A stretch of 64,000 bases of DNA from Candidatus Sumerlaea chitinivorans (GTDB taxonomy: Bacteria; Sumerlaeota; Sumerlaeia; Sumerlaeales; Sumerlaeaceae), in NCBI GenBank assembly GCA_003290465.1, contig CP030759.1, forward strand, positions 846,672-910,671, written 5' to 3'. The notes beneath the pieces were generated by a model. That model was given only the letters and a program-made list of their open reading frames with translations, was not told where the DNA came from and did not search any database. Every line of letters begins with the position of its first letter. Position 1 is the stretch's first letter. The translations under genes and the position numbers were made by a program. Shown here piece by piece: positions 36,265 through 57,967 of this stretch.

Positions 36265-36457
36265 ATTCGCCCGAGCTCCCACCGTCCATTCTTTAAAAGT
36301 TACGCTAAAGCAATCGATTGGCATACGTTTTGCTTAAATGAATCGTAAAAGGCATTTTGATGTTTCAACTACCATGTGAGCTGTAGCTGCATAACTCATA
36401 TTGTTTCAACGCTATACACGCTTTTCATTCGCCAATTGAATCTAAGTCCTTCCCCGC

Positions 36458-36518: not shown

Positions 36519-38096
36519 ATGGCAATCACAATCCAACAAGTTCAAAAGCAAACCCAGAAGTTAGCCATGACTCCGCTCATGCAGCAATCGTTGCAATTGC
36601 TGCAAATGCCGGCGTTGGAGCTCGAGCAAATGGCGCTTCAGGAGATTGAGCAAAATCCGTTTCTCGAGATTGCTGAGGATGTGGAGGATGATCAAGCGTC
36701 AGTTGAAGAGGATTTGGCTGCGGGACTGGAAAGCGGCTCGGCAGAGGTCGAAGTGGACGATAAAAGTTCTGAGGGGGCCGAGGAGCCCTTACCCGATCCG
36801 AGCGTCGTAGCAGATGATTCTTCAGGGCTGCCATTGGGGGACGAGGATAAAGAAGAGGGCGTTGAGCTGCCAGGGGAAGCAGAGGTCGCCCATTTTGACG
36901 ATGTGGATGTGAATTGGGATGAATGTTATGATGGGGCGGATAGCCCCGTCTACTATGCCCGGTCTTCCGACGAAGAGGAGCATGATCTCGAGGATTATGT
37001 GGCGGCGCGTCCGGATCTTCGTCAGCAGTTGAAGTGGCAACTGCAAATGTCTGTCGCGACCGACGCTGAGCGGCGGATTGGCGAGTACATTATTGGAAAT
37101 CTCGACAGCGATGGATATTTGCGTGTTCCCATCGAGGAGATTGCAGCGGATTTAGGGTGCAAGCCCCAAGACGTTGAAAAGGTTCTTAAGCTGATTCAGA
37201 GCTTCGACCCACCCGGTGTAGCAGCGCGCTCCCTTGAAGAATGCTTAGAAATACAGCTCCGCAATCGCAAAGTGAAAGACCCACTTGCCTATGAGATTGT
37301 TCGCAAACACCTGAATTTCGTCAAAAACAAGCGCATCCGGACACTGGCTCAAAAGTTAGGCGTGTCCGACGACCGTGTTGCACAGGTGGTGAATCTGATA
37401 TCTTCGTTGGATCCAAAACCGGGATCGCGCGTCCAGCAGGACACCGTTCCATATGTGGAACCTGATGTAATCGTGAAAAAATTAGACGATGACTATTACA
37501 TTTTTGTGAACGAGGGGCGCCTCTCCGGCCTTCGCCTCAATGGATATTATCGTGCGCTCCTGCAGAGTAAGGACGCTTTCTCAGAAGAAGAGCGCAAATT
37601 CGCCTTAGAGAAATTTAAGGCAGCTGTTTGGCTGCTCAAGAATCTCGAGCGCCGTAAAGCGACTCTTTTGCGGGTAACGCAGGCCATCATGGAGCACCAG
37701 CGTGGGTTCTTGGAGCACGGCGTCTCAGCGCTAAAACCCCTCACGTTGCGACAAATTGCGGATGAGGTGGGTATGCACGAATCCACGATTGCGCGAGTTA
37801 CGAGCGGGAAGTATGTGGAGACGCCGCGCGGACTTTTTGAACTTAAGTATTTCTTTACACGCGGGGTCCAACAGGACTCGGGCGAAGAACTCAGCAACGA
37901 AACGGTGCGCCAGCTAATCAAAGAACTCGTGGAGTCGGAAGATCCAGCAAACCCGCTGAGCGATCAAGCCATTGTAGCGATTCTGCGAAAACGTGGAATC
38001 AACATTGCTCGACGGACTGTGGCAAAATACCGTGCTCAGCTTGGAATTCTCCCCTCGCGGCTACGAAAAACAATCGACAGTGCTAATAAGGACTGA
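36519..38096 (+). CDS. rpoN: RNA polymerase sigma-54 factor
   Basis: The alternative sigma factor that recognises -24/-12 promoters and needs ATP-dependent activators. The 525-residue protein has the glutamine-rich activator-binding region (KLAMTPLMQQSLQLLQMP), a long acidic region II (roughly 48-130), the core-binding and helix-turn-helix domains (MHESTIARVTSGKYVETPRG) and the RpoN box ARRTVAKYR at the C terminus. A -24/-12 element ahead of the pilin operon at 57.4 kb could be its target. The 3' end overlaps the convergent radical-SAM gene by 14 bp. No enhancer-binding activator is in the window. Confidence 0.97.
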   Translation: MAITIQQVQKQTQKLAMTPLMQQSLQLLQMPALELEQMALQEIEQNPFLEIAEDVEDDQASVEEDLAAGLESGSAEVEVDDKSSEGAEEPLPDPSVVADDSSGLPLGDEDKEEGVELPGEAEVAHFDDVDVNWDECYDGADSPVYYARSSDEEEHDLEDYVAARPDLRQQLKWQLQMSVATDAERRIGEYIIGNLDSDGYLRVPIEEIAADLGCKPQDVEKVLKLIQSFDPPGVAARSLEECLEIQLRNRKVKDPLAYEIVRKHLNFVKNKRIRTLAQKLGVSDDRVAQVVNLISSLDPKPGSRVQQDTVPYVEPDVIVKKLDDDYYIFVNEGRLSGLRLNGYYRALLQSKDAFSEEERKFALEKFKAAVWLLKNLERRKATLLRVTQAIMEHQRGFLEHGVSALKPLTLRQIADEVGMHESTIARVTSGKYVETPRGLFELKYFFTRGVQQDSGEELSNETVRQLIKELVESEDPANPLSDQAIVAILRKRGINIARRTVAKYRAQLGILPSRLRKTIDSANKD

Positions 38097-54377: not shown

Positions 54378-56357
54378 TCAGAGCCACGCATTGAGCTCTG
54401 CGATTGGGCCAGTTACCATTTCCGCGATCTGGAGACTGCCATAAACTGAAACGCTACTGAACAGGCCAGCCTTTAACCGCGAGTTGTAGTAGATATCAGG
54501 GCTCCCGGTTCCGCCATAGCCGTTTTTCGTCACGATGCAACCATAGATCGTGGCATTTCCTGTACGGGAGAGACTACCCGTTACATACAGTAACCCGTCG
54601 AGATAACAATTTGCGATTCGCGTTCCCGTGCTACTTCCGGTTGGATCAGCCGCATATTCATCAGGGTTTTTCATTAGGACTGTTGGAAACGCCCCACCGC
54701 CAGAGGTGGACCAATTGCCATTGTGGTAGATCATGCCTTTCCAGAAGAAGGCGTCGTTTGAGCCTAGGGAGATCGTGACTGGTGTCCCGTTTGCCCGCCC
54801 TTCTGGTGTGTCAATAAACAGCATGCGATCCGGGATCGCAGCCGTATTCCCGTCGGGAGGAATAAGTCTTTTCATCGAGATCTGGGCAAGGCTTGTCAAG
54901 GGGGTGTTGCCTGTAGAAACTGTGGTCAGAGTTCCCGACGGCGTCACATGGAGGGTTTGGCCCCGCTCATTGACGAATCCCCCGCCGCCAGCCCGAGGTC
55001 GGATATACCCATTGTTCGCAATCGCAAAACTCTTCCACGATTCATAATCGAGGATGTTGTTGATCATGTTGTCGACCGTCACCGCAACTGGCTGCCAATT
55101 TTGGATGAGGGCACCAGAGCCCATTGGGTAGGCCGCTCCTCCATCGGGGATGGGGTCAAAAAGAATGCGCTCGCCGGTTGTGGGGAGAGCCCACTGCCCC
55201 GGACCTGTCCAGTTATAATCGCCGCCCAAAGACAAGGTTCCACGCGTCAACGGCTTAGCTCCGGAATTAAAGGCACCGTTCAAAACTTGCACAAAGAAAT
55301 CGGTCACAGGCACACCGTTTAAGGTGTTCGGAAAGATTGGCGTAAGATTGTTCCCGGTTTTGTTGTATAGACGGTCCGCTGAAATCCATTTTACCCATTT
55401 CTCATCGCCAACCCCCGCACCGACAAATTTGTTACTGGCTGCACTCAGCTCATACGGATCACCGCTTTTGGCCGGGATGGAAAGGGGTGATAAGCCCAAA
55501 AGGTTGATTGGACCTTTGGACACAACCGGCCCCCAGTGAATGTTTAGACTGCTGGTTCCGCCCGCCGTCACGATTGCCCCCGACATTAAGCCCGCTGTGG
55601 ACCCAACAAGGGGCGGGGTGTTCGTATCGGTACCGGGGATAATGAGAATCTTCTGCTGCACAATGCGTGTCTTGGGACGAGGCTCTCCAATCACTTGCCC
55701 TTCAGACTCGATGATAAGGGTTACTTTTCTTAGGTCGTCTTTAGCGTAAGGCCCAGCGGCCGATGTCCCCGAGCTGCGATACGGGGTGGTAATGCGGATA
55801 CGGGTCACGTAGGCTCGCGCACCGTTTCCAGAGTTCGAAAACAAATTCTCCGTTGGGTTCCCTAAGGCATCGTTCCGGAATCGGATCACTTTGTTGTCGG
55901 GACCTGTAAACTCATACAGAACCTGCCGCCCATCTGGAAGAATTCTTCCGCTTCCAAGGGAAGCGTCAAAAGCGGTGTAGTACGAGACGATCTGGCTCAC
56001 GGTAAGATTGTCGAGCAGGGATGTGTTATCCCGGTTCGCACGCACGTAATTGCTAAACGCGATCGCTCCAGATGTGATCTTCTCCAACTTCCCGCCGATC
56101 GTAGAACCGAGGTGCGCTTTTGCGAGGGCGGGTTCGCGTATCCAGTTTCGGGTGGCGGCGAGGCCAGACATGGCAGTGTGATACGCCTCTTCGTAAAGCA
56201 CTTTGTTTAGCGTGGAGCGCGAAAGATCTCGGACGTGAAGCAACATAACTCCAACCGCAAAGAACATAATGCCCACGAGGATAAGCGTTACCACCATTGC
56301 CGAGCCACGGCTCGACTTAGAGCGTGGCAGGACCAGATGTCGTGATGTCTTTCGCAT
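54378..56357 (-). CDS. Large PilX-like pilus-associated protein
   Basis: A 659-residue protein. Residues 20-45 form a hydrophobic N-terminal helix (SAMVVTLILVGIMFFAVGVM) typical of PilX-type minor pilins; it lacks the class III cleavage Gly-Phe-Glu set. The rest is a large secreted domain with glycine/serine-rich strands (GTSSLNIHWGPVVSKGPINL) and repeated GG turns. The ATG at 56357 was chosen because GGGGAGG lies 6 nt upstream. It overlaps the PilW-like gene by 41 bp. In other genomes PilX-like proteins sit with PilV and PilW, as here. Confidence 0.75.
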   Translation of the reverse strand: MRKTSRHLVLPRSKSSRGSAMVVTLILVGIMFFAVGVMLLHVRDLSRSTLNKVLYEEAYHTAMSGLAATRNWIREPALAKAHLGSTIGGKLEKITSGAIAFSNYVRANRDNTSLLDNLTVSQIVSYYTAFDASLGSGRILPDGRQVLYEFTGPDNKVIRFRNDALGNPTENLFSNSGNGARAYVTRIRITTPYRSSGTSAAGPYAKDDLRKVTLIIESEGQVIGEPRPKTRIVQQKILIIPGTDTNTPPLVGSTAGLMSGAIVTAGGTSSLNIHWGPVVSKGPINLLGLSPLSIPAKSGDPYELSAASNKFVGAGVGDEKWVKWISADRLYNKTGNNLTPIFPNTLNGVPVTDFFVQVLNGAFNSGAKPLTRGTLSLGGDYNWTGPGQWALPTTGERILFDPIPDGGAAYPMGSGALIQNWQPVAVTVDNMINNILDYESWKSFAIANNGYIRPRAGGGGFVNERGQTLHVTPSGTLTTVSTGNTPLTSLAQISMKRLIPPDGNTAAIPDRMLFIDTPEGRANGTPVTISLGSNDAFFWKGMIYHNGNWSTSGGGAFPTVLMKNPDEYAADPTGSSTGTRIANCYLDGLLYVTGSLSRTGNATIYGCIVTKNGYGGTGSPDIYYNSRLKAGLFSSVSVYGSLQIAEMVTGPIAELNAWL

Positions 56358-56949
56358 AGTTGTCCTCCCCTTTATCGAGGAAATGATTCTTCGCAATCAC
56401 ATCGGTGATAAACTGTCCGTATTGGGGATTGCCCGGGTTCTCAAGGACCCGAGCAAACCCTCGGTACGTGAATCCAGCAACGAGTGTAACACGGAACATG
56501 CTTTCATATCGAATGCCAAAACTTTCCATATAAGGAAACGACTTTGCAGGGGTCCCATTTGGGTTCCCGTCGGAGTCGAACGTTACCTGATTCTCACTGT
56601 CGAACCAGTAAAGTTCCTTATTTCTTGAATGGTAAGCAAGTACGGCCGTGGTGACTGAATTTGCGCTCAAGGGCATTGCGACTTTTAATCGTTTTACTTC
56701 CTCTAATGTAACGGGGTCGTCCGGATAACGCGAAAAATAGGCAGCATTGCGAAGCAGGTTCGCTGTCACTTCAATTGCATTTGCTGCGTTCACCTGACTA
56801 ATGATCTGCTCATGCAAGCCAGCAAAGTTGCGTCCTGAGTAAAAGGTAAGGTACGCAAGAAAACTAAACACCATCGCCAGAATCGAAAGCGAAATCACCA
56901 TTTCCGCAATCGAGAATCCGCGCTTATGTCTGGCGAGCCTCTGCGTCAT
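56317..56949 (-). CDS. PilW-like minor prepilin
   Basis: A 210-residue prepilin with the class III signal RGFSIAEMVISLSILAMVFS; cleavage falls before Phe and Glu is at +5. The body has one YRNAANL-like helix and a C-terminal beta domain. It starts at ATG 56949, overlapping the previous stop (ATGA). The order PilV-PilW-PilX is kept. It probably primes or caps a type IV pilus. Confidence 0.82.
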   Translation of the reverse strand: MTQRLARHKRGFSIAEMVISLSILAMVFSFLAYLTFYSGRNFAGLHEQIISQVNAANAIEVTANLLRNAAYFSRYPDDPVTLEEVKRLKVAMPLSANSVTTAVLAYHSRNKELYWFDSENQVTFDSDGNPNGTPAKSFPYMESFGIRYESMFRVTLVAGFTYRGFARVLENPGNPQYGQFITDVIAKNHFLDKGEDNYAKDITTSGPATL

Positions 56950-57386
56950 GTCGTTCCTGCCCTCACAAGTGTGGACATACTAATGGTTTGGACCCTGGAA
57001 CTGCTGCCGGGCGGCTGCCACGACACCGTCACCCGGCAAAGGGTGAGGCGTCCGTAAATAGCAGCAGGTTGCGGATTATCCCAATCCACCGTCCCATCAT
57101 CCCGCACGGGGTAGAAGGTGACTGTCACAGTCGCCTCAATTTCAAGGCCGGGTGCGTTGAAGGGAACCAAAGTTTTGACCCCTGCATCGATGGATGCATT
57201 TGTATGCGCTGCTTCGAGCGCTTGGCGGGCATAATTCAACGCTGCCAGCCGCTGCTTATCGAGTTCCATGGATTGTCGGGTGAAAACCATACCGCCAATC
57301 ACCGATATTCCGACAATGAGCGTCAGCAGCATACTCACCGTCGCTTCTACAAGGGAGAACCCTTTATTTCGCTTTTGAGTTTTCAT
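56946..57386 (-). CDS. PilV-like minor prepilin
   Basis: A 146-residue prepilin beginning MKTQKRNKGFSLVEATVSML, with Gly-Phe cleavage and Glu at +5. The membrane helix is followed by a short globular part (RQALEAAHTNASIDAGVKTL). ATG 57386 was preferred to the longer start at 57401. It is the first gene of the operon, 37 bp after a sigma-54-type promoter start. Confidence 0.82.
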   Translation of the reverse strand: MKTQKRNKGFSLVEATVSMLLTLIVGISVIGGMVFTRQSMELDKQRLAALNYARQALEAAHTNASIDAGVKTLVPFNAPGLEIEATVTVTFYPVRDDGTVDWDNPQPAAIYGRLTLCRVTVSWQPPGSSSRVQTISMSTLVRAGTT

Positions 57387-57422
57387 GTGTTCGCCCAGCA
57401 ACTCTGGTCTGGTCCACTAACT

Positions 57423-57434
57423 ATAACCGGTTAT
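57423..57434. repeat. 12-bp palindrome at the pilin transcription start
   Basis: ATAACCGGTTAT is perfectly symmetric and lies where the -12/-24 promoter predicts the transcript start. It could be a regulator site or chance. Confidence 0.3.
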
Positions 57435-57435
57435 G

Positions 57436-57451
57436 TGCATTTTTTGTGCCA
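57436..57451 (-). promoter_or_regulatory. Sigma-54 (-24/-12) promoter of the pilin operon
   Basis: On the minus strand the 16 bases TGGCACAAAAAATGCA match the consensus TGGCACG-N4-TTGCW at all but two positions, with GG and GC the required 10 bp apart. The predicted start (about 57425) is 39 bp before the PilV-like start codon. Pilin promoters are often sigma-54 dependent, and rpoN lies at 36.5 kb. Confidence 0.6.
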
Positions 57452-57628
57452 TACCCCCTGACAAAAGCAACCGGAAAATTGGGATCAAAAACGTTCCAAC
57501 TATCAATCGTCTGCCGCGGGAGTTGAGGGAATATTTAAACCTGATGCACAAAAGTTGTGCGCCAAGTGAGTGATTTTGCTCTCACTTGAGCTCAGGAGGT
57601 TTAGGTGGAATTGGGGGCATCTGCGCCG

Positions 57629-57967
57629 TTAGTCCGTGATTTTTCGCTTCAAGTCAGGCAAGGTACTCTTATCACCAGCTCTCATGTAACGCGACTCGTT
57701 GCCCGTGGCGGTCACATTCTCGTAGACACCATGGTCACGCTTAACAAGTTTTGTGAACCCAAGTTCCTTCAGTTTTGAGTCACCGATGGGAGTGCTAATC
57801 CCCGGCGCAAAAAGCAGTTTTTCGACTGGCGCGTCGGCTGGTGTGTCACCGAGTTCTATGCCCAATGCGGAGCACACTTCCCCCCACGTCTGGAGCCGGA
57901 CATTCATCGGGTGCAAAACTTCGACCGAACGTCCGTTGTGTGGGCAAAAGTATTCGTACACAGGCAT
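57629..57967 (-). CDS. FmdB-like protein with degenerate zinc ribbon
   Basis: A 112-residue protein starting MPVYEYFCPHNGRSVEVLH, the N terminus of FmdB-type zinc ribbons, but the CxxC pairs are mostly lost: only single Cys residues remain in FCPHN and VCSALG. The tail (GVYENVTATGNESRYMRAGD) resembles those proteins' extensions. Zinc binding is doubtful. It is the last gene of the BMC vertex-vanZ-gmk-fmdB-like set. Confidence 0.65.
   Translation of the reverse strand: MPVYEYFCPHNGRSVEVLHPMNVRLQTWGEVCSALGIELGDTPADAPVEKLLFAPGISTPIGDSKLKELGFTKLVKRDHGVYENVTATGNESRYMRAGDKSTLPDLKRKITD

Follow-up and report, generated by a model that had tools for sequence, protein, structure and literature searches.

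A predicted sigma-54 promoter and a candidate activator site in front of a minor-pilin operon of Candidatus Sumerlaea chitinivorans

The stretch of DNA analysed for the current report, referred to here as the window, comprises 64,000 nucleotides (positions 846672-910671 of C1, the one contig of the 3.29-Mb genome G000) of Candidatus Sumerlaea chitinivorans. It carries three coupled genes for prepilin-type proteins, which are listed here in window coordinates together with the sequences that surround them and with rpoN:

36519..38096, plus strand: rpoN, encoding AID, CBD and DBD domains
54378..56357, minus strand: PilX/GspK-like large minor pilin, 659 aa from the ATG
56317..56949, minus strand: PilW-like minor pilin, 210 aa, Pfam N_methyl above cut-off
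56946..57386, minus strand: PilV-like minor pilin, 146 aa, Pfam N_methyl above cut-off
57423..57434, no strand assigned: palindrome ATAACCGGTTAT over the predicted +1 at 57425
57436..57451, minus strand: predicted sigma-54 -24/-12 promoter TGGCACAAAAAATGCA, a consensus match with GG-N10-GC kept in homologues
57546..57560, no strand assigned: probable activator (UAS) palindrome, minus-strand GCACAACTTTTGTGC, 94 bp upstream of the promoter and just below the FmdB-like gene
57563..57588, no strand assigned: inverted repeat CAAGTGAG-N10-CTCACTTG, a terminator-like stem lacking a T run, between the FmdB-like gene and the UAS palindrome
57629..57967, minus strand: upstream neighbour, FmdB-like zinc-ribbon protein (profile match below cut-off)

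The initial annotation had described the three genes as a coupled PilV-PilW-PilX-like set, and their products are indeed prepilin-type minor pilins, encoded by genes that overlap by 4 bp (PilV and PilW) and 41 bp (PilW and PilX) and of which the last is GspK/PilX-like. These names reflect gene order and the kind of protein, and no family-specific PilV, PilW or PilX model of Pfam or NCBIfam was matched. The genes, promoter, palindrome, conservation, second operon and activator presence pattern described below come from the sequence and from its comparison with two sets of genomes. The first is a phylum set of 40 genomes, 14 of which (G000 included) have PilV homologues that together provide 15 upstream regions; the second is a family set of eight genomes, G000 and G029 to G035, of which G032 is 66% complete. 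The operon (operon 1) is present in G000, G029, G030, G031 and G034 and was not found in the incomplete G032, in G033 or in G035. MAGs that bear the names Candidatus Sumerlaeota and Sumerlaeaceae contain close relatives of it, and the FmdB-like gene also precedes it at locus L009 and, judging by sequence, at L010.

The 659-aa product of the last gene matched no Pfam family, and its N-terminus exhibits a weak match to GspK (E 0.0007; 19 bits against a cut-off of 130). The protein has no Glu5, as is also the case for GspK, and a poor AlphaFold model places a long helix at its N-terminus; AlphaFold run on three sequences yielded a pLDDT of 32 and no usable fold. Related C-terminal parts, in which glycines and a DIYYN-like end are conserved, are found in large PilX-like proteins of 20 of the 40 phylum genomes, in open frames mostly of 450-820 aa, so that a protein of this size is nothing unusual in the phylum. 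Two of 13 members show a weak match to DUF7305 in the C-terminal part (best E 0.0035), and the matches that this part gave among solved structures, to the designed protein 7ong (E 6e-5) and more weakly to others, were read as a matter of composition and set aside. As to the initial suggestion that so large a protein was perhaps an adhesin tip, a GspK/PilX-like tip subunit is plausible, and proteins of such size are common in the phylum; an adhesive role is conjectural. A role at the tip of a pilus or pseudopilus would be in keeping with the kind of protein and the order of the genes.

Upstream of the operon, TGGCACAAAAAATGCA (57451-57436) has GG-N10-GC intact and agrees with the consensus TGGCACGNNNNTTGCW at 14 of 16 positions when N is counted as matched, or at 11 of the 12 specified positions when the Y/R/W classes are used. 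The 14-of-16 match with correct spacing in front of the three genes thus stands as it was originally reported, as do the presence of rpoN in the window, which is recognized by its three domains, and the palindrome at the expected start, since ATAACCGGTTAT, read from 57434 to 57423, contains the predicted +1. The G029 homologue shows no such palindrome at the corresponding position, where the G030 homologue has a different inverted repeat, ACATCC-TTAAT-GGATGT (read by eye). The promoter match alone is not significant, because the 64-kb window holds 26 matches to the consensus with no more than two mismatches, where 21.3 are expected; as the best match within 250 bp upstream of the gene, TGGCACAAAAAATGCA has a p value of 0.005. 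Among the homologous upstream regions, GG-N10-GC sites of at least 9/12 with the GG at -80 to -36 are found in six of 15 (G000, G030, G029, G013, G014 and G039), a count scored, like the p values given here for the 250 bp upstream, with start codons that were picked by eye after the sites had been seen, and far above the shuffles (mean 0.21, none of 1000 reaching six). The other nine regions have no such site in this range of positions. The in-place site of G029 scores just 9/12, and a 10/12 site lies further upstream at -123; the start codon selected for G034 is 190-310 bp away from the promoter and palindrome above it.

Transcription of the operon might instead come from read-through from the FmdB-like gene, or from a sigma-70 promoter that escaped notice, with the -24/-12 match a product of chance. 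The FmdB-like gene has the same direction and adjoins the operon at L009 and L010 as well, and matches as good as this one are no rarer in the window than chance would have them. We nevertheless consider this explanation very unlikely: the site is conserved among homologues both in position and together with the upstream palindrome, a search of 57300-57700 turned up no sigma-70-type promoter, and the inverted repeat at 57563..57588 could end an upstream transcript. The reading of TGGCACAAAAAATGCA as a sigma-54 promoter is supported by the sequence, and is strengthened by the homologues and by the predicted activator site above it.

That site, the palindrome GCACAACTTTTGTGC, was absent from the initial annotation and is likely to be the place at which an activator binds. 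Its spacing is that of an NtrC-type GCAC-N7-GTGC; the available portions of PMC4987338 give the NtrC consensus as TGCACC(A/T)4TGGTGCA and the usual UAS distance as 80-150 bp. Both G029 and G030 retain GCACAAAATTTGTGC although the intergenic DNA has diverged, and within 250 bp upstream of the operon the palindrome is also found in G031 (11/12, p 0.001) and G014 (10/12, p 0.004); its consensus was built from G000, G029 and G030, so that the scores of these three are not independent. A GCAC-N7-GTGC followed after 80-160 bp by a GG-N10-GC of at least 9/12 occurs in six of the 15 homologous regions, with gaps of 94 bp in G000, 103 in G030, 139 in G029, 98 in G034, 121 in G007 and 139 in G014, and is absent from the other nine; none of 500 shuffled sets contained even one qualifying region.

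In the own genome, GCACAAnnnTTGTGC occurs at two places, both before minor-pilin operons, and its reversed control at none; the composite of palindrome, 85-115 bp and GGYN8TGC occurs once, at operon 1, and its control not at all. Across eight genomes the same composite is found at 12 places against five in controls, and the three places examined are minor-pilin operons (operon 1 of G000 and of G030, and operon 2 of G029). Across the 40 genomes the palindrome has seven sites, against four in the reversed control; matches in G004, G015 and G025 were rejected as regulon sites, since the adjoining genes are unrelated. The own genome holds 15 further places with one mismatch, 13 of which were inspected, for ORFs only; these 13 include the other copy in the tandem at the second operon.

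The second place of the exact palindrome defines this other candidate target:

2617616 of G000: operon 2 palindrome GCACAAnnnTTGTGC with an adjacent 11/12 copy, 369-384 bp above a 553-aa PilX-like gene

Here the PilX2 gene (553 aa) comes first and is followed by PilV2- and PilW2-like genes. The orthologous operon of G029 has two adjacent degenerate palindromes (10/12 and 10/12) with a GG-N10-GC site of 9/12 nearer the gene, and that of G030 two adjacent, partly degenerate palindromes (11/12 and 11/12) with a site of 11/12 nearer the gene. In G000 itself, despite the tandem palindrome, no GG-N10-GC of at least 7/12 was found in the 480 bp searched, which counts against a simple reading at this place. 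A Ser/Thr kinase gene lies upstream of operon 2 (L060:10934-11965, minus strand).

No NtrC-type activator gene, for which the initial annotation would have one look, is present in the window, but the genome encodes nine strong Sigma54_activat proteins. One of them deserves particular attention:

C1 of G000, around 626041 (L068:9301-10791): E8, NtrC-like response regulator with AAA+ and HTH_8 domains

The gene upstream of E8, which overlaps the E8 gene, encodes a GAF-GAF-HisKA-HATPase kinase. The best NCBIfam model for E8 is ntrC, at 499.4 bits and below the cut-off of 558.6, and among the seven response-regulator-type activators ntrC is the best model for E8 only. When all 79 Sigma54_activat proteins of the eight family genomes were compared, reciprocal-best orthologues of E8 were found exactly in G029, G030, G031 and G034 and not in G032, G033 or G035, so that of the nine activators E8 alone matches the presence pattern of operon 1. 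This co-occurrence is drawn from eight genomes, among which G032 is 66% complete, and involves at least two changes of presence on a rough FastTree tree of three activators. An FHA-GAF type protein, E7, had been favoured on the basis of 66 of the 70 activators from the other genomes; the full set adds an E7 orthologue in G033 and an E8 orthologue in G031, and for that reason the pattern of E7 no longer fits and that of E8 does.

It is nonetheless possible, if on balance doubtful, that the promoter is sigma-54 dependent and that E7, or else another activator (E4), binds the palindrome. E7 is present in all five operon-bearing genomes, the RNT of its recognition helix (HRNTLRNK) recurs in E8, and a Ser/Thr kinase encoded upstream of operon 2 would suit an FHA regulator. 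Nevertheless, the operon-less G033 has an orthologue of E7, E4 occurs in both G033 and G035, and it is E8 that has lost GAFTGA in G031, while the E7 of that genome keeps it. E8 is, on such genomic comparison, most likely the activator of the operon 1 palindrome.

In the E8 orthologue of G031, GWTRTAALRGG takes the place of the GAFTGA found in the other four; the Walker motifs of this orthologue are changed and its helix-turn-helix is intact. Operon 1 of the same genome keeps the palindrome, and no GG-N10-GC was found in the 250 bp upstream of it; a weak sigma-70-like match there is no better than chance. The available text of PMC3162934 describes NtrC-family homologues without GAFTGA as sigma-70 dependent. 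Regulator and promoter thus appear to have jointly shed their sigma-54 parts, a coincidence that is telling but a single case, because eight of the 79 activators have no GAFTGA-like motif, two of them perhaps through being cut (G033_L229 and others at contig ends, not distinguished from one another). Palindromes with no visible -24/-12, at operon 1 of G031 and operon 2 of G000, might suggest that the palindrome is the site of a repressor or other regulator unrelated to sigma-54 and lies above the promoter by chance. This seems to us unlikely, given that palindrome and promoter stand at UAS distance in six of 15 regions and that the candidate regulator of G031 has itself lost the sigma-54 contact motif. 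Little short of an even chance is what we would give to a more elaborate proposal, in which a dedicated GAF-GAF kinase/E8 system controls two minor-pilin operons apart from the major pilin and, in G031, regulator and target have jointly left sigma-54 with the operator kept. If that is true, G031 offers a view of how enhancer-dependent circuits get abandoned. The NtrC-family proteins at L254 (G033; GAFSGA) and L256 (G031; motif absent) are ones in which GAFTGA is altered.

We regard it as quite probable that promoter, palindrome and second operon belong to an RpoN-controlled minor-pilin regulon with an NtrC-type activator, most likely E8, bound at the palindrome. The three genes would constitute a single operon, transcribed by RpoN-RNA polymerase from 57451-57436 with a start near 57425, and the holoenzyme would stay closed until the activator acts. 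We infer that the activator, in all likelihood E8 with its GAF-GAF-HisKA-HATPase kinase partner, would bind GCAC-N7-GTGC 94 bp upstream, first as a dimer and then in oligomeric form, and would loop over and spend ATP to open the promoter. Operon 2 (PilX2-PilV2-PilW2) may be served by the same activator through its tandem palindromes, and the products of the operons would serve to prime a type IV pilus or pseudopilus, or to cap it.

That pilus genes can be under sigma-54 control is already known (PMC3162934 and PMC6058289, in the sections available), and the operon is therefore best viewed as a further, well-supported instance of a familiar type of gene regulation. One of the closest parallels is PilR/RpoN of Pseudomonas aeruginosa and Geobacter sulfurreducens, where, as is predicted here, type IV pilus genes are controlled by sigma-54 together with a response regulator of the NtrC type. 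The best-known target of PilR/RpoN is the major pilin gene pilA, whereas here it is minor-pilin operons that have a predicted UAS of their own, the PilA-like gene of this genome carries a different tandem palindrome, and no pilS/pilR pair adjoins the operon. In the accessible parts of PMC6058289, sigma-54 promoters are predicted before T4P genes in G. sulfurreducens and the minor pilins of P. aeruginosa are reported to be Vfr dependent. NtrC (GlnG) shares with the present system the GCAC-N7-GTGC spacing and, through the best model of E8, the protein family; it differs in that the site here has AA..TT and not C(A/T)4TG beside the GCAC/GTGC cores, in that the predicted targets are pilins, and in that E8 falls below the curated ntrC cut-off and has a kinase with two GAF domains. 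HupR, TyrR and DhaR, members of the NtrC family without GAFTGA, resemble the G031 orthologue of E8 and its target without -24/-12, but here the change falls between orthologues of one family and has the target promoter alongside. We found no literature on Sumerlaea sigma-54, on Sumerlaea pili, or on minor pilins with sigma-54 and an enhancer binding protein, and the available portion of PMC8787478 does not mention RpoN. For the pilus genes of an uncultured phylum, the locus provides a combination of regulator, operator and promoter that can be put to the test, and it suggests that the minor (priming) pilins are controlled separately from the major pilin.

Prepilins are numerous in this genome, 46 being recognized by N_methyl (47 matches at E <=10, one of them spurious and dropped); together with 17 T2SSE ATPase matches above cut-off, this is many for one 3.3-Mb genome. 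Sigma-54 sites of at least 11/12 at -110 to -30 were found in four of 48 upstream regions (those of the 46 prepilins and of two PilX-like genes; shuffle mean 0.04, none in 500 shuffles reaching four), namely those of operon 1, a short PilA-like gene (L147), a GspG-like gene (12/12) and L157. Above its 11/12 site the PilA-like gene has perfect 20-bp palindromes, ATGTGTAAN4TTACACAT and ATGTGAACN4GTTCACAT (L147:1738-1778), which represent a different UAS, and the GspG-like pseudopilin gene that has the 12/12 site before it (L179; position 1060910 of C1) follows an apparent dnaA end. Within the window, a strong sigma-54-like site, TGGCATACGTTTTGCT (36319-36334, plus strand), lies 200 bp above rpoN, and autoregulation of rpoN through it is possible. 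CRISPR-looking repeat arrays were seen at L038 (near 1501) and L063 (980-6558), and one of their spacers gives a chance 16-mer match to the sigma-54 consensus.
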